This document shows positions 8,817-48,306 of a DNA stretch of 52,606 nt, piece after piece. The DNA lies in NCBI GenBank assembly GCA_944377745.1, contig CALWFV010000005.1:73876-126481 (forward strand), read 5' to 3'. The notes below the pieces were generated by a model that saw nothing but the letters and a program-made list of their open reading frames with translations, was not told the origin of the DNA and did not search any database. The first letter of the stretch is position 1. Each line of letters opens with the position of its first letter. The translations under genes were made by a program, and so were the position numbers. This stretch comes from an uncultured Mediterraneibacter sp. GTDB lineage: Bacteria; Bacillota; Clostridia; Lachnospirales; Lachnospiraceae.

Positions 8817-9566
8817 TTATTTGTAGTTTACGATCTTTCCGAAGTCAGCCTTCAGGGAAGCTCCTCCTACAAGTCCTCCATCGATGTCAGCCTGTGCAAA
8901 AAGCTCTGCAGCATTTCCTGCATTCACAGATCCGCCATACTGGATACGGATTGCATCTGCTGTAGCCTCATCATAGACTTCAGCTACGCACTCACGGATG
9001 CCTTTGCATACTTCCTCAGCCTGCTCTGTTGTAGCAGTCTTGCCTGTTCCGATCGCCCAGATCGGCTCGTAAGCGATGACCATCGTCTTAGCCTGGTCAG
9101 CCGTTACGTTCTGAAGGCCAACCTTTACCTGCTGACGGATGAAGTCCATTGTCACGCCCTGCTCTCTCTGCTCCAGAGTCTCACCGCAGCACATGATCGG
9201 TGTGATGCCGTGCTCGAAAGCTTTGAGGACTTTCTTGTTTACATCCTCGTTTGTCTCTCCGAAGTAGTCTCTTCTCTCGGAGTGTCCGAGAACAACATAC
9301 TTCACCCCTGCATCTACGAGCATTGCCGGAGAGATCTCTCCCGTGTAAGCTCCGCTCTCCTCAAAATACATGTTCTCAGCGCCGACCTGGATGTTTGTCC
9401 CTTTTGCCGCCTCAACAACCGGTACGATATCGATCGCCGGTACGCAGAATACTACGTCAACTTCCTCGTTTGCTACGAGCGGTTTTAGTTCTTCAACAAG
9501 GGCAACTGCCTCGCTGGGAGTTTTGTTCATTTTCCAGTTGCCTGCAATGATCTTCTTTCTTGCCAT
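8817..9566 (-). CDS. tpiA: Triosephosphate isomerase
   Basis: A 249-residue TIM-barrel enzyme that interconverts dihydroxyacetone phosphate and glyceraldehyde-3-phosphate. Visible signatures are NWKMN near the N terminus (with the active-site Lys), the catalytic His in [12 protein letters not shown], the catalytic Glu in [15 protein letters not shown] with its flexible loop, and the C-terminal phosphate-binding YGGSVN and GGLVGGASL. Length is normal. AGGAG lies eight bases before the ATG. It is the third gene of the glycolytic operon, separated from pgk by a structured 150-base spacer and followed by a strong terminator. Confidence 0.97.
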
Positions 9567-9610
9567 TTTCTTTTCTCCTGAATAAATAGTTTAAGGTAAT
9601 TTAAGGTATC

Positions 9611-9707
9611 TTCCCTCAACTAACCTCGCGCTTATAGCGCTCGCTAAGGTTCGGGAAGGACCTCGCACTAAGTTCAGCCTGCGCCTTCGGCTTGGCTTCA
9701 CTAAGTT
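9611..9707. repeat. Structured spacer between pgk and tpiA: nested palindrome plus direct repeat
   Basis: TTCCC/GGGAA (9611-9615 and 9653-9657), AACCT/AGGTT (9622-9626 and 9647-9651) and GCGCT/AGCGC (9628-9632 and 9636-9640) nest as one interrupted hairpin. Beside it CACTAAGTT occurs twice (9666-9674 and 9699-9707), flanking the small GCC/GGC hairpin at 9683-9691. No reading frame of substance is present. It may be an mRNA processing or stability element, or a copy of a dispersed repeat. Confidence 0.5.
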
Positions 9708-9716
9708 GCTTTCGGC

Positions 9717-10916
9717 CTACTTATCGTTTGCTGCTGCTACGCCCGGCAGTTCCTTTCCTTCCAGGAACTCAAGGGAAGCGCCGCCGCCTGTCGAGATGTG
9801 TGTCATCTTGTCGCCGTATCCGAGCTGGTTTACGGCTGCAGCGGAATCACCGCCTCCGATGATCGTAACAGCGTCTGTGTTTGCAAGGGCCTCAGCAACT
9901 GCTTTTGTTCCATCTGCGAACTTCGGCATCTCGAAGCATCCCATCGGTCCGTTCCATACAACTGTTTTTGCTGATTTCACAGCATCAGCATACATTTTTG
10001 CTGTCTCCGGTCCGATATCAAGTCCCATCCATCCGTCCGGGATCTCGTTCTGCGGAACAACCTTTGTATTTGCATCGTTTGAGAATGCGTCTGCCGCAAC
10101 AGAGTCAACAGGAAGAAGAAGTTTTACGCCTTTCTCCTCTGCCTTCTTGATCATGTCAAGAGCATACTGGAGATAATCTTCCTCAAGAAGTGAGGTTCCT
10201 ACGCTTCCGGCCTGTGCTTTTGTAAATGTATAGCACATTCCGCCTCCGATGATCAGTGTGTCTACCTTGTCGAGCAGGTTATTGATAACAGAAATCTTGC
10301 TGGATACTTTGGATCCTCCAAGAATCGCAACGAACGGTCTCTCCGGATTCTCTACTGCGTTTCCGAGGAATTTGATCTCTTTCTCCATCAGGTATCCCAC
10401 AACTGCTGTGTCGACGTATTCTGTAACGCCTACATTTGAGCAGTGAGCTCTGTGAGCTGTACCAAATGCATCGTTTACGAACACATCGCACAGAGAAGCA
10501 AGCTCTTTGGAGAACGCTTCGCCGTTCTTTGTCTCTTCTGCTCTGTAACGTGTATTCTCAAGGAGAACAACTTCTCCGTCCTTCATCTCTTCAACTGCTG
10601 CTTTCGCGTTCGGTCCGACAACCTCCGGATCAGCCGCAAATTTTACTTCCTGGCCAAGGAGCTCGGAAAGTCTGACTGCAACCGGTGCAAGTGAGAGTTC
10701 CGGCTTCGGCTCTCCCTTCGGTTTCCCAAGGTGTGAGCAGAGGATCACTTTGCCGCCGTCGCCGATCAGCTTCTTGATCGTCGGAAGAGCTGCAACGATA
10801 CGTGTCTCATCTGTGATCTTCCCATCCTGAAGCGGTACGTTGAAGTCACATCTTACAAGGACCCTTTTGCCCTTTACATTGATGTCGTCTACTGTTTTTT
10901 TGTTAAGTGCTGCCAT
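9717..10916 (-). CDS. pgk: Phosphoglycerate kinase
   Basis: A 399-residue cytosolic kinase that makes ATP from ADP and 1,3-bisphosphoglycerate. The N-terminal substrate domain shows RCDFNVPL and the basic patch SHLGKPKG. The C-terminal nucleotide domain has [11 protein letters not shown] and the phosphate-binding [11 protein letters not shown] near the end, followed by [13 protein letters not shown]. Length is that of a standard single-domain-pair PGK, not a PGK-TIM fusion. AGGAGG precedes the ATG by eight bases. It follows gap on the same strand after 169 bases, which include a hairpin that may partly end the gap message. Confidence 0.97.
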
Positions 10917-38401: not shown

Positions 38402-38471
38402 CACACCGCCCCGGGGACAGGAAGATGAATCGTCATGCCTGCATGTAAGAGTCATCTTCCCGTCAGGTGTG
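38402..38471 (-). terminator. Long terminator-like hairpin closing the TPR/DUF5716/DUF5717 operon
   Basis: CACACC (38402-38407) pairs with GGTGTG (38466-38471), and GGAAGATGA (38420-38428) with TCATCTTCC (38452-38460), with a GAC/GTC link between. The right arm overlaps the stop codon of the TPR gene. The U tract is poor, so it may act as an RNA-stabilising end as well. Confidence 0.6.
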
Positions 38472-39230
38472 GCTCCTCCGATGCTGTCTCTTCCACTTTT
38501 CCAGAAGAACCGGAGTAGGCTCAATCTGCAGATTCTTCTTAATCTCATCGATTTCCTGTCTCATCTGGGCATTGACCTCCATATAGTCTTCATGCTTTGT
38601 GATAAGAATATGATATTCCTCCATCGACATGTACTTATACGAAGCATAGAGATACGGCTTGAGAAGTGCTTTGTCCTCACAGATCTGATAGGCCCGGTCA
38701 TACATTTTTGCTGACTCCTGATACAGGAAAAGACGCCCGTAGGCCGCTCCCAGCCCGGCGTAGATCTTTCCGTAGAACTTCTCGTCCACGCTCTCATCCT
38801 TCTCCTCGTTCAGGATCGCCTGATACACAAGGATCGCCTCCTCAATCTCGCCGCTCTCAAGGAGGTTGTCTCCCTTATATTTCTGCCGTTCGATGTCACG
38901 CTGATTCTTCAGATGCTCCAGCACGTTCTGGATATGTATCATCTGTGGCTCCCGGTAGATCCTGGAGGCTTTCAGGATTGTCAGCACAAATTTCTCGACT
39001 GACCCCCTCAGGCGCAGCACGTCCCGCAGGCTGTCCGCAAGAGCCGGCATCCCGATCTCCTCCTCGATCCAGTTGCAGAGCTGCTCGTTCATGATCGTAT
39101 AGTCGATCAGATAGAGATTATTGCACAGATAATAACACAGCTCCTCGATCGTAAAGATCCGGCAGTGGATCCTGGTTATCTCATAGGGATGCGTCGCATG
39201 TTTATCATGACAAAGAATTAAATTTCCCAT
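38463..39230 (-). CDS. TPR-type helical protein of the DUF5716/DUF5717 module
   Basis: A 255-residue soluble helical protein. The N-terminal third (about 1-60) has FTIEELCYYLCNNLYLIDY. A middle TPR-like array (about 118-200) includes GDNLLESGEIEEAILVYQAI and YAGLGAAYGRLFLYQESAKM, with the small-large residue pattern of TPR helices. The C terminus is charged and basic. I cannot assign a biochemical role. The start is chosen at 39230, five bases after AGGAGG; an ATG three bases earlier is too close to it. That ribosome site lies inside the last codons of the DUF5716-like gene, with which it overlaps by 26 bases, so the two are translationally coupled. It is the third gene of the module. Confidence 0.75.
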   Translation of the reverse strand: MGNLILCHDKHATHPYEITRIHCRIFTIEELCYYLCNNLYLIDYTIMNEQLCNWIEEEIGMPALADSLRDVLRLRGSVEKFVLTILKASRIYREPQMIHIQNVLEHLKNQRDIERQKYKGDNLLESGEIEEAILVYQAILNEEKDESVDEKFYGKIYAGLGAAYGRLFLYQESAKMYDRAYQICEDKALLKPYLYASYKYMSMEEYHILITKHEDYMEVNAQMRQEIDEIKKNLQIEPTPVLLEKWKRQHRRSHT

Positions 39231-40488
39231 CATTGCCTCCTAAATGTATGGTCTTCTCCGCCTGGAAATCCGTGGGGAGGAAAAAATCTCCGAATCCTAC
39301 GTCTTTTACCGTGATCTTGCACGTTTTCTCATCCAAAAAAAGAGTCTCGATCTGAAGCCGCATGGAATACTCCGCCCGTTTTGGGAATTTATCAAGAGAA
39401 ATCTTCTCTGTCTTCAGTGTACCCTGGGTCAGGGATTCAATGTGGAACTCGATATCCTCCACATCCTCCATGATCACTTCCCACTGATTGTTGGATTCAT
39501 ACCAGTGCGCTCCCCAGGAAACAATAGGATACCACATCTCCTGCCCGTCCACACGCATATTGACCGTAATCTGATCTGTCAGTTTATCCTCTGAGAGATA
39601 TACCGGATTTTCGATATGCATATAAAGTTTCCGATACGCCGTATAGCATGCTCCCTTACTGTACAGATTGTTTCCAATGAACGCCCGGCGCCCGTTGCAG
39701 AGCACCCGGAGCGCTTTCGGGTACCAGTTGTTCTCAAACCCCTCCCCTGTCAGAAAAACAGAGGAGACGATCCGTTTGTCGAACACGCTTTCTATAAACC
39801 TGCAGAACATGGTGTCGGCTTCTTTCGCCTTGTCCTCATTCAGCACCGGATAAACCATGGCAAGTTCTTTCATATGTGCACTCGCCACCTCGTCCACTGT
39901 CACAAAAGTAGTCTTTCCTCCGCCCAGCCCCGGTTTGAGCCGGCGCAGCATATACGCCTTGATCTCATTTCTGTCACAGCAGAACAGCGCCGCGTCATAC
40001 TGCCACAGCTCTTTGGGCTGATAAAACAGATAGTTGCAGAAGCTTTCCTTATAATCCTGTATGAAGATATGCCTCTTATCAATATTCATCCGCACCGCGA
40101 TCCCCCGGAGCATCTGCGCCAGTTCCTCCGTCAGAGCCGGGACACTGAACACGATCCCGTCGATCCGCGGAAACGTCTGGAGCGACATCTGGATAAATTG
40201 TGAGAGAAGCCATACTGCGTCATAGGTTTCTTCACCAAACTCGATCTTATCACCGGCAAGGCTCCTGCTCAGAAGTCTTGTGACTGTAAATCCCTCTTTT
40301 ATGGAGACCAGCCTTTTTGCCTCCTTGCCGTAAGCCCATGTATCCCTCAGTTTCCCGATAACCAGAGGGATCTGATAATTGTCGGAATCCACCTCCAGCG
40401 TTTCCGGCTCCATCTGCTGATCATTGTAGTAACTGATCTGGCACGTCTTTTCATTTATCTCATATCCTATTATATTGCCCTGTCCCAT
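39205..40488 (-). CDS. DUF5716-like protein with Hsp70/actin-type fold and eroded nucleotide motifs
   Basis: A 427-residue cytosolic protein. Its order of segments follows the Hsp70 ATPase domain: IIGYEINEKTCQISYY (6-21) at the place of phosphate-1, GKLRDTWAYGKEAKR (45-59) like the early Hsp70 GxxAK segment, GIVFSVPALTEELAQML (111-127) like the VPA segment, YDAALFCCDRNEIKAYM (164-180) at phosphate-2, and VFLTGEGF (244-251) with GNNLYSKGACYTA (272-284) like the adenosine region. The Gly-Thr-Thr and GGGT residues that hold nucleotide are missing, so ATPase activity is doubtful. The C terminus (about 290-427) is beta-rich. AAGGAGG precedes the ATG. It lies 15 bases after the DUF5717-like gene. 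The family name is from recognition, the fold from motif order. Confidence 0.72.
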   Translation of the reverse strand: MGQGNIIGYEINEKTCQISYYNDQQMEPETLEVDSDNYQIPLVIGKLRDTWAYGKEAKRLVSIKEGFTVTRLLSRSLAGDKIEFGEETYDAVWLLSQFIQMSLQTFPRIDGIVFSVPALTEELAQMLRGIAVRMNIDKRHIFIQDYKESFCNYLFYQPKELWQYDAALFCCDRNEIKAYMLRRLKPGLGGGKTTFVTVDEVASAHMKELAMVYPVLNEDKAKEADTMFCRFIESVFDKRIVSSVFLTGEGFENNWYPKALRVLCNGRRAFIGNNLYSKGACYTAYRKLYMHIENPVYLSEDKLTDQITVNMRVDGQEMWYPIVSWGAHWYESNNQWEVIMEDVEDIEFHIESLTQGTLKTEKISLDKFPKRAEYSMRLQIETLFLDEKTCKITVKDVGFGDFFLPTDFQAEKTIHLGGNDGKFNSLS

Positions 40489-40503
40489 GGAAAGGCACCC
40501 TCC

Positions 40504-43500
40504 TTAATACTGTTCAAACATATGCGCGGCAACCGTGTCCTCCAGCGCGTATGATCTCATCTTTCTCTCCCTCTCCTTCTCATCCGTCTCCAAAAGGATA
40601 TCATTGAGTCTTCCGTATCTGCCCTGTTCCCCCGGCATTACTTCCCGCACGCAGGTCTCCTTGTCGCTGCGGTAGGAATTACCGTCTATGGTTTCCTTGA
40701 AATAATATTTCAGCTTTTCGTTTGCAAACAGCACAAACTTTTTCACATACAGATTCTCATACATAGGAGTTAGCACCTCTGTAGAATAATCCGCAGGCTC
40801 TCTCCCGCCTTTCTGAAGCTGATAGTAGAGCATAACCCGGCTTCCCTTCTGCCCCTTATATTCGATCAGAACCTTATCCCAGAGCTGCAGTTCGATCAGC
40901 CATTCCTTCTCGTACGCAAGAAAGAACGGGAAATATATCTGTTTTCCGCACAGTTCCTGCAAAAACTTCTTCAGCGTCCTGCGAGTCTGAGAGTTATACT
41001 CCCTGGTTGAATAGTATTTCAGCACCGCGAGTTTGCAGATATCGATGGTGGTTTCCCCCTTCTCGTACTCCCTGCATATGATATCGATCACACTCTTTCC
41101 GATCCGTCGCTCTTCTACCACATATTCTCTTGAGATATATGCAAGATAAGCCTGTTGGAGCCGGAAATACGCCCCTTCTTCATAGTATTCCTCAAAGATC
41201 GGAGCCTCCTGGAACAACTCCTCAGAAAAAAGCATCTGCGTCAGAATCCTCTCTGCCAGTTTATGGGTATGAACCTCATAATCCCGTGCTTCTCTCCAGA
41301 GCTGCTTCATATCCAGCGTGGCACCGCAGTAATAATTAGCAAGATATGTCAGAATCACTTTATCATACTGTCGTTTTTTAAAGAGATCAAAGCAGACATA
41401 GGTAAGGAAGTCGTCATTTTCATAATTGTTCTCCCTGATATTCTTACTGCACAGGCTGAAGATCTCGTCCTCCGTAAAGTTTTCCAGCCCTTTCTCTCTG
41501 ACGACCTCCAGCGTCAGCTCCTCTGTCTCATCCTCACGGCGATTTCGCAGGAGTCCGTTCAGATACTTTCTGCACATGTCCATATATCTGAGCTCATAGA
41601 AAAGCCGCTTGCTCTCATAAGGAATGGAATCCGTATAATGTCTTCCGTCCTTCGCCTCCCACACAAGCCGGTCAGTCTTTGAATACAGAAATACCCTTGT
41701 TCCATTCTCAAGATACGGCGCCTTCTGGGTGATCCTGCCATTCTCGGAAATGACATGGACATACTTCATGTTTGATACTTTTGTCGTAATCCAGTAAGCA
41801 TGGCAGATATCATAAAGCGCCTTCACCCGTTCCGTATTCATGGACGATTCCACGATAAACCTTTTGTAGATGATCCGGAGCTGTTCGTCAATGTTCCTGC
41901 GCTCCAGCTGATTCCAGGCAAATGCCTCCATCTCATCACGGTAATGAGTGTAGATCTCACTGGACTCGTCCTCATAAGTGATCAGATTGGAATAGAGAAA
42001 CGCGCACTTATGGTAATCCAGTGTATTTCCGTGCATAAAATACAGGTATACCGAGCGTGGCAGCGCCTTGTGGAACCGCTCCGGCCGGGCCGCCGCCATA
42101 TAGTATTCGTAGAGCTGGGCAATCTTCAGTTCTGACTCCACCGCCTTTTCATACCACTTGAAATAGCAGCTGTCCATGCAGCTCCCCTTGATCAGGAGCG
42201 TGCAGACCGCATTGAGGATCATGGACTCTTCATACATAGCATACGCCATTTCAAGTACTTTATAGAGATGACGGTCAAATACCTTCATCTGGCTTGCAAG
42301 ATTTGCGGTATACAGCGCCAGCTCTTTTGTCATCAGTTTGTATTTTACAGCAAAGAGAAGCACTCTTACTTCGAATTTCCCCAGCTTTTTCAGGGATGAG
42401 CTTCTCTCTCTGAAACAGCGGAACGCCTGCATATAGAACCAGATGCTGTGGGAACGTTCCTCATAAAACTGCTGTTCCAGGGCACGGAGACGTTCACTGT
42501 AGATCTTATACTCCGAATCCACTTCCACCAGCATACAGAGGATCAGCCAGCTGTCAGGATGTTTCATGAAAGATCTTGACAGTTCCTCTGCCACCCTCCT
42601 CTGTCCGATCGTATCATTGCTCAGAAGAGTCGTGAGATACAGGTAATACGAGCTGAGCTCCACATCCTTTCCGATGGCAAAGCGGTTATAGTTATAGGAT
42701 TCCAGGATCCATTTTGCATCCTCCGTCTTCCCCCCGATCAGACAGATATGGGCGTTGACCAGAAGATAGATCTCATTTTTGGGATCCGAATCTCTCAGGC
42801 GGTTAATCCTTCTAACCGCATCTTCCGTCCATGCAGAAAGCTCCTGCCGTCCGCTCTCGTAATTGAGATACCCCTTCACAATACCTGCAAACTCCCGTTC
42901 ATGATCCCTGCGGTCCTCATCTCTTTTTACATTTTTTTCCACGACGATCTCGTAGGTGAGCGTCTCATAGGGAGTATCGAGGATGACTCGTCCGAAATTA
43001 CTCCCTGAATGAAGATTTTCCGTTGTGATAAAATATTCCAGACGGTAGGAATTACCGATAAATTCTTCTGTCGTGATATGTGTGTGCTCTACATAGAGGA
43101 AATCCCCCTCAATCCTCACATCAATCTCGAGATATCCCCATGTGTTTTTCTTGATGGTAAAAGTCTCTTTGCGGGCTTCGGTAAGAGACATGAACGCACG
43201 GCTCTCCTCCTCCAGTGTCAGAAAGATCTTTTCCTTCTGTTTGCATCCCACAAGGAACTCCTCAAGGCCGTGCTGATCCAGTTCCCACTTGCGCATATTA
43301 TCATAAAGAGCCTGAATCCTGATATCTTCATATTTTAATATCTCGTAAAAATCCCGGGAGCGGAACAGTTTCTCCGCTTCCGCAGCGTCCCGGAACGCAA
43401 GCTTTTTAAAGTCATCCAGACTCTGCACCTTCCCGTATTGGGTCAGGACAAAGGGTTTCTCTATCACCGCGGTAAAGGCGATGTCGAACTCTCCGCCGTT

Positions 43501-43806
43501 GCATACAATGGTAAATTTGCCGTGTTCCACATGCCCGGGCACCAGCCCTCTCCCGTCATATGTATAATAGATGTTTACAGGATTGCCGTCGAACCCCTCC
43601 TCCTGGCACTGAACACGATAGGAGGACGGATAGACAAGACCTCTTATCGTACCCTCCCCCTGGTTCTGGAGTGAGAAGCTCCCTTTATATTCTTCCCCCT
43701 CGCCCACTCTCATGATGATATGGGTCTCCGGAAAAATAATCTCCGGCTGGGGGATATGGAAATCTCCTTTTGCAAAACGTTTGATCTTATTTTTCAAATC
43801 GGTCAC
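40504..43806 (-). CDS. DUF5717-like large protein (N-terminal beta domain plus alpha-solenoid)
   Basis: An 1100-residue protein with no signal peptide or membrane helix, so cytosolic. Residues about 25-125 are beta-rich and look like an Ig/ASH-type domain (EEYKGSFSLQNQGEGTIRG, then KFTIVCNGGEFDIAFTAVIE). A second beta segment lies near 210-305. From about 315 on, helical pairs of TPR-like type dominate (ELSAWTEDAVRRINRLRDSD, YLLVNAHICLIGGKTEDAKW), broken by a small beta insert near 685-750. The C terminus (about 1000-1100) is charged. I do not know its function; large solenoids of this kind serve as scaffolds. It is the first gene of the three-gene module and has a clear extended -10 promoter 50 bases upstream. 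Confidence 0.72.
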   Translation of the reverse strand: MTDLKNKIKRFAKGDFHIPQPEIIFPETHIIMRVGEGEEYKGSFSLQNQGEGTIRGLVYPSSYRVQCQEEGFDGNPVNIYYTYDGRGLVPGHVEHGKFTIVCNGGEFDIAFTAVIEKPFVLTQYGKVQSLDDFKKLAFRDAAEAEKLFRSRDFYEILKYEDIRIQALYDNMRKWELDQHGLEEFLVGCKQKEKIFLTLEEESRAFMSLTEARKETFTIKKNTWGYLEIDVRIEGDFLYVEHTHITTEEFIGNSYRLEYFITTENLHSGSNFGRVILDTPYETLTYEIVVEKNVKRDEDRRDHEREFAGIVKGYLNYESGRQELSAWTEDAVRRINRLRDSDPKNEIYLLVNAHICLIGGKTEDAKWILESYNYNRFAIGKDVELSSYYLYLTTLLSNDTIGQRRVAEELSRSFMKHPDSWLILCMLVEVDSEYKIYSERLRALEQQFYEERSHSIWFYMQAFRCFRERSSSLKKLGKFEVRVLLFAVKYKLMTKELALYTANLASQMKVFDRHLYKVLEMAYAMYEESMILNAVCTLLIKGSCMDSCYFKWYEKAVESELKIAQLYEYYMAAARPERFHKALPRSVYLYFMHGNTLDYHKCAFLYSNLITYEDESSEIYTHYRDEMEAFAWNQLERRNIDEQLRIIYKRFIVESSMNTERVKALYDICHAYWITTKVSNMKYVHVISENGRITQKAPYLENGTRVFLYSKTDRLVWEAKDGRHYTDSIPYESKRLFYELRYMDMCRKYLNGLLRNRREDETEELTLEVVREKGLENFTEDEIFSLCSKNIRENNYENDDFLTYVCFDLFKKRQYDKVILTYLANYYCGATLDMKQLWREARDYEVHTHKLAERILTQMLFSEELFQEAPIFEEYYEEGAYFRLQQAYLAYISREYVVEERRIGKSVIDIICREYEKGETTIDICKLAVLKYYSTREYNSQTRRTLKKFLQELCGKQIYFPFFLAYEKEWLIELQLWDKVLIEYKGQKGSRVMLYYQLQKGGREPADYSTEVLTPMYENLYVKKFVLFANEKLKYYFKETIDGNSYRSDKETCVREVMPGEQGRYGRLNDILLETDEKERERKMRSYALEDTVAAHMFEQY

Positions 43807-43855
43807 CTACTCATAATACTTTTCCCTGCCGGAAGGCAAAGGAACGCTACTATGA

Positions 43856-43885
43856 ATTATAGCATCATTGAACTGTATCTGGCAA
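43856..43885 (-). promoter_or_regulatory. Promoter of the DUF5717/DUF5716/TPR module
   Basis: TTGCCA (complement of 43880-43885), an 18-base spacer and a perfect TATAAT (complement of 43856-43861) preceded by TGC, an extended -10. The module can therefore be transcribed apart from the transglutaminase operon upstream. Confidence 0.7.
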
Positions 43886-43958: not shown

Positions 43959-46073
43959 TCATGCCCCATAACAGTATATATATCTGTATAAAATCCGCTG
44001 GCCCGAACTCATTTTTCGAAACGCTTCCTCAGAAAATCTGTTATAGATCTCGTCCGCTCTGATCCAGTCTGCTCTCTCGTCATCCAGATGATAGAACAGA
44101 CTTTTCATCACAGTCTCATACATCCATGACCACTCTTCTTTTCCAACCGTTTCTACACATCCGCTCATCTGCTCCACACAGCTCTCCTCTGTCAGCATAA
44201 ATCTTTTCTTTTCCAGAAAACCGGCTGTCTTCTGCGCACTCTCATACATGGCGGTAATCCCGGTGCCCTCCTTTATCGCGCGGAACCGTTTCCGGTTTCC
44301 GGCACGTCTCACTGCCGCCTGAACAATGATCAGCAGAAACAGGGCCGCTGCAGAGCCTGCGCCTGCTGCGATAAACACAAGCCAGTCTGCCGCTGCAGCC
44401 GTTCCCTGCCTGTTCTCCCCTCTGTCCCGGTGGGTTCCATCTGAAATTTCTCCGTCTTCTCCCCCCTCTTCCGCCGATGCTTCCTCACCTGTCTCTTCCC
44501 CATTCTCCTCTGAACCGCTGTCTGCCTGCTCCCCTGGTGCTCCCGCTTCTCCTGAATCATCAGGCAGTCCGGCCGCCGACCCATTTCCCGGTGTGTGTTC
44601 CATATTGATCCACTCTCCTGAGTCTCCATCATATACCTGACACCATGCGTGTCCCATCGTCCCGTCGATCCGGGCCACATATTCTCCGTTCTCGTCCAGA
44701 GAAAAGGCGGATGCCGGAACCGCATATCCTTCTGCATATCTTGCGGGAAATCCATTCATTCGGTAGAGCAGTACCGCCGCTGAGGCAAAATGCACACAGA
44801 ACCCTCTCCCTCTCTCAAAGAGGAAATATTCTACAAAGTCCTGCCCTATTGGTGTCCTGCCCGGGCTGGTGTCATAGACAGCCCGCTGTGACAACTCCTC
44901 ACTGATCCGGTCTCTGAGCTCCTGAAGCGAGCTGAAATCCCATTCACTACAGACCGACTCCAGCCGGTCAAGCCCGCCCGGCCAGGCAGCGCATCCCCGG
45001 AGCAGTGCTTCCCCGCTCAGATTTTCCTCTTCCATATCAGTCCAGGAATCTCCTGTATAGGTGATCCCGTAGCGCTCCGCCACATAAACAGTCGCCTCAG
45101 GGCGGTATGACAAACGCACCGTCTGCTCTGTCTCCCCGGATGGGCTGAAATAAGCCAGCGCGTTGAGATCCTCCATCCCGCTTCCGGCCCCTTCAGACTG
45201 ACCTCCGAATCCCCTTTCCCCTGCTGCACTGGTGACAAAATTTTCTATGGGCGCGATGATACCGTTTTGAATCTCTTCTCTCGCCGTCTGGTAAATACCG
45301 CCCTGGATATCCCGGCCCGAATCCAGCACTCGCCCCAGATTCAGCGAAACAGCCGCCATAAGGCACAGTATGCCAGCAGCCGCAAAATACCTGCCCCACG
45401 GCCGGAGCACGCCAGTCTCTCCTTCTTTTTCTGCATTCTGCCCGCACACCGCGAAATACCCGCCTGCCGCCAGAAGCAGAAACCAGACCGGACGTTCTGC
45501 CTGAAAATACCCTGCTGCCGCAGCAGCAAGGACAGGAACCGGAATAATGATCCCCGCCAGAATCCTGCCTTTCCCGCTCCCTGATACAAGGATCCACGCT
45601 TCCAGTACCGGGATCGTGATCGCAGCGGCTTCCATCCCAAGCAGGCTCTCTCCGCTGATCCGAAGTCCTCTGCCCGTATGGAGGATCAGATCCGGCGGTA
45701 CACTTAAAGCGCCGGCCGTCTCCGGATATATCATCACATTCCAGCTCTCTGCGATCCGCAGAAAAAGATACTGAAATACCGGGTAACATACCAGGGTCGC
45801 AGCAACTGCCGCCATAAGGAAAATAAGCAGGCCCTTTCCCCCTGTTTTCCGATAGAGCACGGTCAGCAGCACGGAGAGAACCGCAAGTCCGCCATAGAGC
45901 CAGATTGTCCCGAATCCTGCCGGAAAAACAGAAAGGAACGCATTCCACCATGCTCCGGCCAACAGCCATACACTGAAGGACCGGAGCGCCTCCAGGGCAG
46001 ACAGATTCTTCCGCCGGCAGTCAGCCGGAGACTTATGCTCATATATCCTGATTGTGGAACTGCCCTTCCTCAT
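43959..46073 (-). CDS. Membrane transglutaminase-like protein (TgpA type)
   Basis: A 704-residue membrane protein. Six or more helices fill about 30-230, followed by an extracytoplasmic region with a transglutaminase-like core. The Cys is in GRGFCVHFASAAVLLYR (near 425) and the His in GTMGHAWCQVY (near 475). The third position, normally Asp, reads Glu in WINMEHTPG (near 490). An acidic Gly/Glu-rich linker (about 505-555) leads to another helix (about 565-590) and a C-terminal cytoplasmic DUF4129-like tail. TgpA-type proteins pair with MoxR and DUF58 proteins, exactly as here. The substrate is unknown; a cell-envelope peptide or protein is likely. It starts 74 bases after the DUF58 gene. Confidence 0.85.
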   Translation of the reverse strand: MRKGSSTIRIYEHKSPADCRRKNLSALEALRSFSVWLLAGAWWNAFLSVFPAGFGTIWLYGGLAVLSVLLTVLYRKTGGKGLLIFLMAAVAATLVCYPVFQYLFLRIAESWNVMIYPETAGALSVPPDLILHTGRGLRISGESLLGMEAAAITIPVLEAWILVSGSGKGRILAGIIIPVPVLAAAAAGYFQAERPVWFLLLAAGGYFAVCGQNAEKEGETGVLRPWGRYFAAAGILCLMAAVSLNLGRVLDSGRDIQGGIYQTAREEIQNGIIAPIENFVTSAAGERGFGGQSEGAGSGMEDLNALAYFSPSGETEQTVRLSYRPEATVYVAERYGITYTGDSWTDMEEENLSGEALLRGCAAWPGGLDRLESVCSEWDFSSLQELRDRISEELSQRAVYDTSPGRTPIGQDFVEYFLFERGRGFCVHFASAAVLLYRMNGFPARYAEGYAVPASAFSLDENGEYVARIDGTMGHAWCQVYDGDSGEWINMEHTPGNGSAAGLPDDSGEAGAPGEQADSGSEENGEETGEEASAEEGGEDGEISDGTHRDRGENRQGTAAAADWLVFIAAGAGSAAALFLLIIVQAAVRRAGNRKRFRAIKEGTGITAMYESAQKTAGFLEKKRFMLTEESCVEQMSGCVETVGKEEWSWMYETVMKSLFYHLDDERADWIRADEIYNRFSEEAFRKMSSGQRILYRYIYCYGA

Positions 46074-46147
46074 TCTCTTCTCCTTTCTGTTTCCTTTATT
46101 TCCGGAGCGTCCCCCGCTCTTTTCACTTTCGTCTTACAGAGTCCTTC

Positions 46148-47203
46148 TCACAAACGCAGCAAAGCGGGAATCTCACCGTCTTTTCTCAGAACTCCCTTTC
46201 CGTCTATCGTCACAGTGCTGCTGAACTCCTGCCCCCGGAAGGTCTCTTCAAAACAGGCCTTCTTTTTTTCTTCCTCTCTGTATGGAACAATCTCCATCAG
46301 GCGCCATATGAACTCACAGGCGCTCTCTTCATCCCGGATCCTCATCCTTACGATCTTTTCACTTTTCTCTTCATACCAGGCCGCCATGTGGATACATTTC
46401 TGCTCCGACAGGGTGACTGAAAGGGACGCCGCAGTATTCAGGAGTCGTGAAAAACCTTCCGGAGAGCGGTCTTTCTCACGAAAATCGATCCAGACAAGGA
46501 CCGCGCATCCCAGGGGGAACCCCCTCTCTCTGACCATCAGTCTCCCCTCCCTGGCGCTCAGTTTCCAGTGGATATCCCTGAGATGATCCTGCACCCGGTA
46601 TTCTCTGATCTGATAGACTTCCGACGGGTCGTCGCCCCGCCTCTCCCCTGAGTACTCTTCCGAATCTGCCTGGAACTCTCTCGTTTTCTTCGTGATCTCC
46701 AGGGGCATGGGCCGGAAAGTCGGCATCACTTTGATCCTGGCTTTCATCCGAAAGGAAGCTTTTCTATAGAAGAACCCCATCGGATCATAAACCCGGACAG
46801 ACTCCAGTTCCAGTTCCATATTTCCGCACAGTTCCGTCTCAAACTCGCACCAGCAGACAGCCTTTTTTCCTGGAGAGATCATTCCCGAAAATCTGATCCC
46901 CCTCTTCTTTCCACCGAATTCATTTTTCACAGACACTCTGCTCTCATAATGCAGTGCCAACAGTCCGGACCGGTTCTCCAATATCACTGCAGTCCGGATC
47001 CGCTTTCCCTGTTCCCCCATCGCAGGAATCCTTTCCATATCCGGACGGATCCGTTTTCCTGCTCCCGCAAGATACAAGGCGGAAAAAAAAGGACAGATCA
47101 GGACCATGACCAGGATTCCGGAGAGCACAGTGTCATTGTACACAAAAAAGAGATACAGGGTAAAAAGAAGAACAATCAGATAAATAACAGTCCTTTTCGC
47201 CAT
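46148..47203 (-). CDS. DUF58 domain protein (MoxR-associated)
   Basis: A 351-residue protein. Two adjacent membrane helices near the N terminus (about 5-45) are followed by a beta region and then the DUF58 core, with the typical DDPSEVYQIREYRVQDHLRD and IHWKLSAREGRLMVRE (around 200-240). DUF58 proteins resemble VWA-type adaptors and act with MoxR ATPases; the molecular role is not settled. I start at ATG 47203, only five bases after the moxR stop, since the longer reading frame would lie inside moxR. The ribosome site is weak (AGGCGG), so coupling to moxR translation is probable. Confidence 0.87.
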   Translation of the reverse strand: MAKRTVIYLIVLLFTLYLFFVYNDTVLSGILVMVLICPFFSALYLAGAGKRIRPDMERIPAMGEQGKRIRTAVILENRSGLLALHYESRVSVKNEFGGKKRGIRFSGMISPGKKAVCWCEFETELCGNMELELESVRVYDPMGFFYRKASFRMKARIKVMPTFRPMPLEITKKTREFQADSEEYSGERRGDDPSEVYQIREYRVQDHLRDIHWKLSAREGRLMVRERGFPLGCAVLVWIDFREKDRSPEGFSRLLNTAASLSVTLSEQKCIHMAAWYEEKSEKIVRMRIRDEESACEFIWRLMEIVPYREEEKKKACFEETFRGQEFSSTVTIDGKGVLRKDGEIPALLRL

Positions 47204-47208
47204 CTCAC

Positions 47209-48174
47209 TTACCGCCTCTTTCTCACCGACGGCTGTGGAACTTCTTCGATCACCCGCCGGATCACTTCCTCTGTACGGATATGTCCCACCCTCGCTTTCA
47301 TATTTAAGAAAATGCGGTGCGACACTGTGCATTCAAATACATCTGTCACGTCCGCCGGAACCACATACGCTCTTCCTTTAAGCCAGGCCCGTGCTTTTGC
47401 CATCGCGCTCAGCGCCACAGTCCCCCGCGGGCTGACTCCCAGTTCTGTCCATTCATTGTCCCTGGTCGCCTTCCCCAGTTCAGCAATATACCGGTATATT
47501 CTTTCATGCACAAAGACTTCGCTCACGTCCTTTCGCATAGCGAGAAGTGAGGACGCGTCCAGGATCGGATGCACACTCCTCCGCGTCATGCGCTCTCCGC
47601 CGTCTCCTTCCTGGCTTCTGCGCAAGATCTCCATCTCCTCTTCGACCGTAGGATACCCCATGCTGACACAGATCATGAAGCGATCCAGCTGAGACTCAGG
47701 AAGAAGCTGCGTTCCCGCCGATCCTGCCGGATTCTCTGTAGCGATCACAATGAAAGGCTCCCCGGTCCTTCTTGTAACACCGTCCACTGTCACCTGCCGC
47801 TCCTCCATTACCTCCAGGAGTGCCGACTGAGTCTTCGGAGAGGTCCGGTTGATCTCATCCGCCAGCAGGATATTACACATCACGGCGCCCGCCTGATAGA
47901 CAAACTCGCCTGTTTCTTTCCGGTATACCGTAAATCCTGTCAGATCCGAGGGGAGCACATCCGGTGTAAACTGCACCCTTTTCACCTCCAGTCCCATCGC
48001 CTGGGAAAAAGCAATAGCCATAGTCGTCTTTCCTGTTCCCGGAATATCCTCGATCAGGATATGTCCTCCCGCAAGGATCGCGGTCATAATCTTTGTCAGG
48101 ATCTCTCTTTTTCCCACCACAGCCTTCTCCACTTCTCCGATCACCTGCCATGCAAGCTGCTCTTCTCCTGCCAT
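47209..48174 (-). CDS. MoxR-family AAA+ ATPase
   Basis: A 321-residue cytosolic AAA+ ATPase. Walker A is IEDIPGTGKTT, Walker B is ILLADEINRTSPKTQ with the sensor ATENPAGSAGTQLLPESQLDRF, and a sensor 2/lid region follows (SPRGTVALSAMAKARAW). MoxR ATPases are chaperone-like and are thought to activate partner complexes containing DUF58/VWA proteins. The ATG at 48174 lies seven bases after AGGAGG; a longer reading frame exists but overlaps the promoter. It is the first gene of moxR-DUF58-transglutaminase. Confidence 0.93.
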   Translation of the reverse strand: MAGEEQLAWQVIGEVEKAVVGKREILTKIMTAILAGGHILIEDIPGTGKTTMAIAFSQAMGLEVKRVQFTPDVLPSDLTGFTVYRKETGEFVYQAGAVMCNILLADEINRTSPKTQSALLEVMEERQVTVDGVTRRTGEPFIVIATENPAGSAGTQLLPESQLDRFMICVSMGYPTVEEEMEILRRSQEGDGGERMTRRSVHPILDASSLLAMRKDVSEVFVHERIYRYIAELGKATRDNEWTELGVSPRGTVALSAMAKARAWLKGRAYVVPADVTDVFECTVSHRIFLNMKARVGHIRTEEVIRRVIEEVPQPSVRKRR

Positions 48175-48202
48175 CTCCTGTCCTCCTCTTTGATTTTCTC
48201 TC

Positions 48203-48208
48203 ATTCTA
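48203..48208 (-). promoter_or_regulatory. Candidate extended -10 promoter of the moxR operon
   Basis: TAGAAT (complement of 48203-48208) preceded by TGG, an extended -10. No good -35 lies 16-18 bases upstream. Confidence 0.35.
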
Positions 48209-48306
48209 CCATGATTCCCGTATATGGGACAGCCTCCGTCTCCAAACTTTTGCAAATTTCAGAAAATTCTTCTCTCGGTTGTTCCTGTAATTATTTCAAA
48301 TATATA

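Follow-up and report, generated by a model that had tools for sequence, protein, structure and literature searches.

What can be the role of three adjacent genes that are present in almost all genomes sampled from an abundant gut family, yet whose Pfam names say only 'unknown function'? The question is raised by a 52,606-nt stretch of DNA (the whole of which is called the window here) from an uncultured Mediterraneibacter sp. of the Lachnospiraceae (GenBank assembly GCA_944377745.1, contig CALWFV010000005.1, positions 73,876 to 126,481). On its minus strand and under a single promoter lie the genes for a DUF5717 protein, a DUF5716 protein and a tetratricopeptide repeat (TPR)-like protein, in that order. 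An earlier note, made from the letters of this DNA, had proposed that the three products form a stable complex of chaperone-like or cytoskeletal character. The view we lean towards is that the trio is a vertically inherited remnant of a dedicated Hsp70 machine of the order Lachnospirales and acts as a scaffolded pseudo-Hsp70 complex.

The first two proteins are members of existing Pfam families. The DUF5717 protein (1100 amino acids (aa), GTG start, 40504..43806, minus strand) scores 696 bits against PF18984 (E 8e-209) and 337 bits against PF18983 (E 1e-100), where the cut-offs are 25, and the DUF5716 protein (427 aa, 39205..40488, minus strand) scores 340 bits against PF18980 (DUF5716_C; E 1.2e-101), where the cut-off is 34.7. 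Both family names had been given in the earlier note and proved right; they carry no function. NCBIfam gave no match over cut-off for any of the three proteins. Neither a description of DUF5716, of DUF5717 or of a matching Hsp70/GrpE operon, nor relevant essential-gene data, was found in the open-licence literature, and the words Lachnospir- and tetratricopeptide are absent from a survey of DnaK duplications (PMC11019930).

The three-gene operon is real and conserved. Of 100 genomes sampled from the GTDB family of the window, 97 have DUF5717_N and 97 have DUF5716_C, neither of which was found in 14 control genomes; the TPR protein was found in 97 at E 1e-3, strongly in 96 and by a weak, generic TPR match in G029. 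DUF5717 and DUF5716 occur together in 96 genomes, close together on one contig and strand in 92 of them, on separate contigs in the other 4. DUF5716 and the TPR protein also occur together in 96, adjacent on the same contig and strand in 95 and apart in G084. The trio is absent from G091, which lacks all three genes, and from G029, which has only the generic TPR match; partial sets were seen in two drafts (DUF5716 only in G020, DUF5717 only in G098). Among 74 loci of close relatives found through DUF5717, DUF5716 is next in 71 and the TPR gene is present in 69, and the 3 loci without DUF5716 stop within or soon after DUF5717. The co-conservation on which the earlier note had made its proposal depend is thus found across the family, with the order of the genes kept. 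In ten genomes the distances among DUF5717 proteins (Mantel r 0.63, 1 of 5000 permutations as high) and among DUF5716 proteins (r 0.58, 23 of 5000) track those of RpoB, which, as expected, fits vertical inheritance. In wider samples, DUF5717_C was found in 10 of 291 genomes of the class, every one a member of the window's family, and in 5 of 299 genomes of the phylum, of which 4 belong to that family and the fifth scores below cut-off; the class sample holds few genomes of the order from outside the family and hence sets a weak limit on the spread.

In other families of the Lachnospirales the same genes are part of a longer operon, in the order DUF5717-like, Hsp70-A, GrpE-fused coiled coil, DUF5716-like, Hsp70-B, Hsp70-V (with a C-terminal VWA domain) and TPR protein. 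All seven were found in this order at 19 of 27 long loci, which were reached through the DUF5716_C profile and include two from one genome; among the 8 without all seven, L165, L231, L235, L236 and L237 are cut by contig or fetch ends. L249 (cut) and L250, where tblastn detected neither DUF5716 nor the TPR protein, stand outside the 27. In one example of the long operon, Pfam HSP70 is matched at 5e-76, 7e-63 and 5e-96, VWA at 2e-10, GrpE at 3e-13 and TPR_2 at 5e-26, and the DUF5716-like protein of the same example matches both DUF5716_C (1.5e-26) and HSP70 (1.4e-17). The Hsp70s other than DUF5716 have their ATPase residues intact. Outside the family, DUF5716_C was found in 56 sampled genomes of the order, 55 of which also have the fused GrpE (E <=1e-30); five more have the fused GrpE but no DUF5716_C match. 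Among the 100 family genomes the fusion was not found: 12 of them give weak matches, all inside the GrpE part of the model (positions 515-606) and in frames of 206-263 aa. Nor was it found in the 291 class genomes at 1e-12, with a profile that does work in the order. The chaperone-like flavour suspected earlier is borne out to this extent, that in related families the neighbours of these genes code for Hsp70 and GrpE.

A similar list of parts is known from the GAP1-N2 conflict systems, which are named for a GTPase and combine HSP70, GrpE, a second HSP70-type protein and a beta-domain (FNIII)/TPR protein in one neighbourhood (PMC7159879, section 29). The long operon, too, combines Hsp70s, GrpE and a TPR protein, and its Hsp70-B (9e-11) and Hsp70-V (4e-7) match a PADLOC candidate model in its Hsp70-type region; we have taken the PADLOC matches of the long-operon TPR and Hsp70 proteins to be generic domain matches. 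Could the trio then belong to a defence or conflict system akin to the HSP70-GrpE-TPR theme? This appears very improbable. The trio gave no PADLOC match at E up to 1 and has neither GrpE nor an intact Hsp70, its near-universal presence and low-turnover inheritance in the family are those of core genes, and a Pfam scan found no GTPase among the operon members or ten flanking proteins (no genome-wide search was made). No plasmid record matched the system, and at least two of four matches in phage collections look like mislabelled pieces of chromosome: two records named 'Bacteriophage sp.' (L252, MT835486.1, and L253, MT835988.1) hold the trio amid family-chromosome neighbours, as in L137, and at least in these stretches seem to be bacterial DNA under a phage label.

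How the two operons are related can be seen from profile-profile comparisons. The family proteins match their long-operon counterparts one to one: DUF5717 at E 2e-90 over 1036 columns, DUF5716 at 4e-56 (426), the TPR protein at 2e-33 (198) and the coiled coil at 6e-46 (335). The DUF5716 profile also matches Hsp70-B (E 5e-24, 415 columns, 99.6%), Hsp70-V (95%) and Hsp70-A (66%), and all remaining pairings, a valyl-tRNA synthetase control included, had a probability of at most 17.2% (rows L144, L146, L150 and L238 were left out of the DUF5716 profiles, and L144 and L238 out of the TPR profiles, because of fusions, a short start or a misread start). In a tree of 68 Hsp70-type rows, the DUF5716 proteins of both operon types lie on one side of a branch with support 100, DUF5716 together with Hsp70-B is set apart from the rest (100), and the family DUF5716 groups with that of the long-operon genome G102 (99). 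In an rpoB tree, for which 30 genomes were taken (one yielded no rpoB and another only fragments of it), the ten rows from the family make up a single clade (100/100), to which G102 is sister (100/96); beyond it branch other families with the long operon and also some that lack the system. Because of the one-to-one matches, the gene order and the position of the rpoB clade beside a long-operon genome, we read the trio as a reduced form. On the simplest reading, the long operon would be the older and the trio would have arisen by loss of Hsp70-A, GrpE, Hsp70-B and Hsp70-V, the order of the remaining genes being kept. Neither the connection with an Hsp70/GrpE operon nor the reading of the trio as a reduced version of it is in the Pfam descriptions consulted for DUF5716_C and DUF5717.

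What kind of protein is DUF5716? The window's protein has no direct Pfam HSP70 match; its descent from the Hsp70 superfamily (nucleotide-binding domain and the beta part of the substrate-binding domain, SBD-beta) is apparent from the match to the Hsp70-B profile and from the tree. The actin/Hsp70-fold subunit of the earlier note is supported. In the alignment with Hsp70-B, DUF5716 ends just past the SBD-beta-like part and so has no SBD-alpha lid. Of the ATPase residues of Hsp70, which we take to be D8, K70, E171, D194, T199 and D201, motif comparison shows K70, E171, T199 and D201 to be lost; in the window's protein D8 is E and D194 is C, so that both phosphate-loop Asp are gone as well. (The motif table covers 39 of 40 trio loci, L146 being left out, and 27 long-operon DUF5716 rows, one genome appearing twice as L167 and L231.) Judged by alignment, DUF5716 is related to Hsp70 but has no lid and its ATPase residues are eroded, and it is probably dead as an ATPase. 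Among the 50 PDB matches listed for its predicted structure, all are Hsp70 chains or Hsp70-holding complexes, the matches being weak (query TM-scores about 0.3).

The nearest functional analogue may be Ssz1 of the yeast ribosome-associated complex (RAC), which is described (PMC7083937) as lidless, binding ATP without hydrolysing it, held by a partner and binding clients through its SBD. DUF5716 is likewise a lidless Hsp70-type protein with SBD-beta and may share the non-hydrolysing, partner-held state. It differs in that it has lost more of the nucleotide site, its proposed partners are the ASH/solenoid and TPR proteins rather than the J-domain partner that marks RAC, and the likeness carries no link to the ribosome. 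RAC works with Ssb (same source), and by this precedent DUF5716 could be a co-chaperone or nucleotide-sensing partner of ordinary DnaK, binding nucleotide while the main DnaK and GrpE supply the ATP cycle in place of the Hsp70s that were lost. The genome encodes DnaK and a second Hsp70, and phosphate-loop Asp survive in many DUF5716 proteins; but the window's protein has neither of them, and the Pfam matches of neither the trio nor the long-operon example include a J-domain family, which makes such a partnership rather improbable. The second Hsp70-type gene, besides that for DnaK, is a 596-aa frame at G000:C1:82226-83950. Compared with DnaK/DnaJ/GrpE itself, the long operon is alike in the kept ATPase residues of its Hsp70s and in its GrpE domain, but it has lidless Hsp70s, a VWA fusion, an apparently dead paralogue and a giant scaffold, and no J-domain was found in it; the trio differs further in having no intact ATPase.

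The largest protein of the trio had been taken for a beta-solenoid scaffold. This was not upheld by the predicted secondary structure: the AlphaFold2 model of DUF5717 (pLDDT 70.5) is an alpha-solenoid with beta-sandwich regions. One of these (about residues 191-294; 42925..43236, minus strand) has an ASH/PapD-like fold, and the structures that match it best are those of ciliary and centrosomal scaffold proteins. DUF5717 is thus predicted to be an alpha-solenoid scaffold with an ASH/PapD-like domain. For the model as a whole, the best structure match has E 3e-5, with query TM-scores of at most 0.17 among the 50 matches listed. At one locus (L104:9001-12306) the best tblastn segment of DUF5717 spans about half of the gene (9131-10876), which may reflect a frameshift or an assembly fault.

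The ciliary and centrosomal matches would also suit a scaffold for the cytoskeleton or for envelope assembly, in which the ASH-containing solenoid and the actin/Hsp70-fold subunit would make or steer a structure at the membrane or division site, chaperone ancestry being a mere source of parts. At some long loci and many family loci the TPR gene is followed by a gene for a coiled-coil protein with strongly hydrophobic segments; this protein has a strong match in 43 of the 100 family genomes and adjoins the trio in 42 of them (same contig and strand as DUF5716). A near-universal, single-copy core gene set is likewise in keeping with such a role. However, PapD-like folds are widespread and a common fold proves no function, the window's own genome has no match to the membrane protein, and the operon of the relatives consists mostly of chaperone parts. 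On balance we consider a scaffold of this kind unlikely.

The third protein (38463..39230, minus strand) matches Pfam TPR families only below threshold (best 15.8 bits against 30.1). Its assignment as a TPR-type adaptor, made in the earlier note, is supported by way of the long-operon homologue, to which its profile is related at E 2e-33 and which itself passes Pfam TPR (TPR_2, 5e-26). In four family genomes (G025, G043, G067, G071) DUF5716 and the TPR protein are fused in one open frame of 690-727 codons, which suggests that the two associate physically. That the trio consists of three unrelated genes, neighbours by chance, is hardly credible: it is contradicted by the fusions, the co-conservation, the order fixed across the Lachnospirales, and the joint absence in G091 and (the generic TPR match apart) in G029. 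At locus L089 no TPR gene was found after DUF5716 (after 13614), despite about 3 kb of following sequence.

We return to the trio as a reduced Hsp70 machine. The likely ancestral operon would have encoded an ASH plus alpha-solenoid scaffold (DUF5717), two lidless Hsp70s, an Hsp70-VWA fusion, a GrpE domain on a coiled coil, an eroded Hsp70 paralogue (DUF5716), a TPR protein and sometimes a coiled-coil membrane protein. The window's family would then have lost the three ATPase-intact Hsp70s and GrpE, while scaffold, pseudo-Hsp70 and TPR protein stayed in their original order. DUF5717 may hold DUF5716 and the TPR protein in a single complex, in which the SBD-beta-like half of DUF5716 would be a static or weakly nucleotide-tuned docking site, as in Ssz1. 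Such a complex would lack an ATP cycle of its own and would stabilize or present a client, possibly close to the membrane in genomes that have the coiled-coil membrane protein. More tentatively, with slightly less than even confidence, we suggest that the catalytic Hsp70s and the exchange factor were discarded as a set at the origin of the family, leaving the dead paralogue, scaffold and adaptor as a near-universal ATPase-free core. If this is true, the machine would function essentially through its non-catalytic parts, and the ATPases would be dispensable loaders. Through the connection with an Hsp70/GrpE operon, three nameless genes acquire a concrete hypothesis that can be tested. With the full machine and its stripped form side by side, the order provides a natural experiment on which components of an Hsp70 machine are the working ones and by what route pseudo-chaperones come about.

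Several points weigh against this account. What is firm in it is homology, gene order, phylogeny and motif loss; the mechanism is what we infer from them, and the complex, its client and its cellular role are putative. One family has three loci (L169, L172, L173) in which the long operon is broken up or incomplete, and linkage is therefore not strictly needed. Several long branches weaken the Hsp70 tree, the deep forks of the rpoB tree are poorly resolved, and some families of the order are without the system, so the history includes further losses. The structural model of DUF5716 is poor (pLDDT 48.2). One or both phosphate-loop Asp are kept in many family DUF5716 proteins (28 and 20 of 39), and nucleotide binding is hence possible. 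The lack of the membrane protein in the window's genome, raised above, counts here as well.

The signals of the locus fit a single transcription unit, much as had been described. The promoter (TTGCCA-18-TATAAT, 43856..43885, minus strand) agrees with the consensus at 11 of 12 positions. Promoter-like sites are not in excess in the region as a class (11, against 8.2 +/- 3.0 in shuffles); the promoter is trusted because it is conserved, TATAAT with TTGCCA, TTGCAA or TTGCAT being the best site within 160 bases upstream in 62 of 69 sequences (the window and 68 close relatives). A gap of 15 bases (40489-40503) separates DUF5717 from DUF5716. The TPR-like gene has two candidate ATG starts, at 39233 (256 aa) and 39230 (255 aa); the second is the likelier because the AGGAGG ribosome-binding site, which lies within the DUF5716 gene (39236..39241, minus strand), is 5 nt from it and 2 nt from the first, and if it is used the two genes overlap by the 26 bases reported before. 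The closing hairpin (38416..38464, minus strand) has 16-nt arms (38416-38431 and 38449-38464) that are 88% complementary and a predicted RNA fold of -28.1 kcal/mol (z -2.69); it has no T-run after the arms and is not among the intrinsic-terminator predictions. With the consensus that we assume for CIRCE, the heat-shock operator, every candidate upstream of the 69 trios had at least 6 mismatches in 18 positions; a control locus likewise showed no site, so that the result carries little weight. None of the three proteins has a 19-residue window with hydropathy >1.6, which is consistent with cytosolic products. For DUF5717, a TTG 9 bases downstream of the annotated GTG has a better-placed ribosome site, AGGTGA, and may be the start instead (43797-43806).

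Upstream of the trio lies a separate minus-strand group of genes (43959-48255), which encode a MoxR ATPase, a DUF58-like protein and a transglutaminase-domain protein. They were considered as part of the system and rejected. In the 74 close-relative flanks MoxR occurs in 24, DUF58 in 25 and the transglutaminase in 27, and 20 wider family loci have no such cluster in common. The identity of the transglutaminase in relatives is 28-50%, the near-identical L094 aside, against 73-99% for DUF5716.

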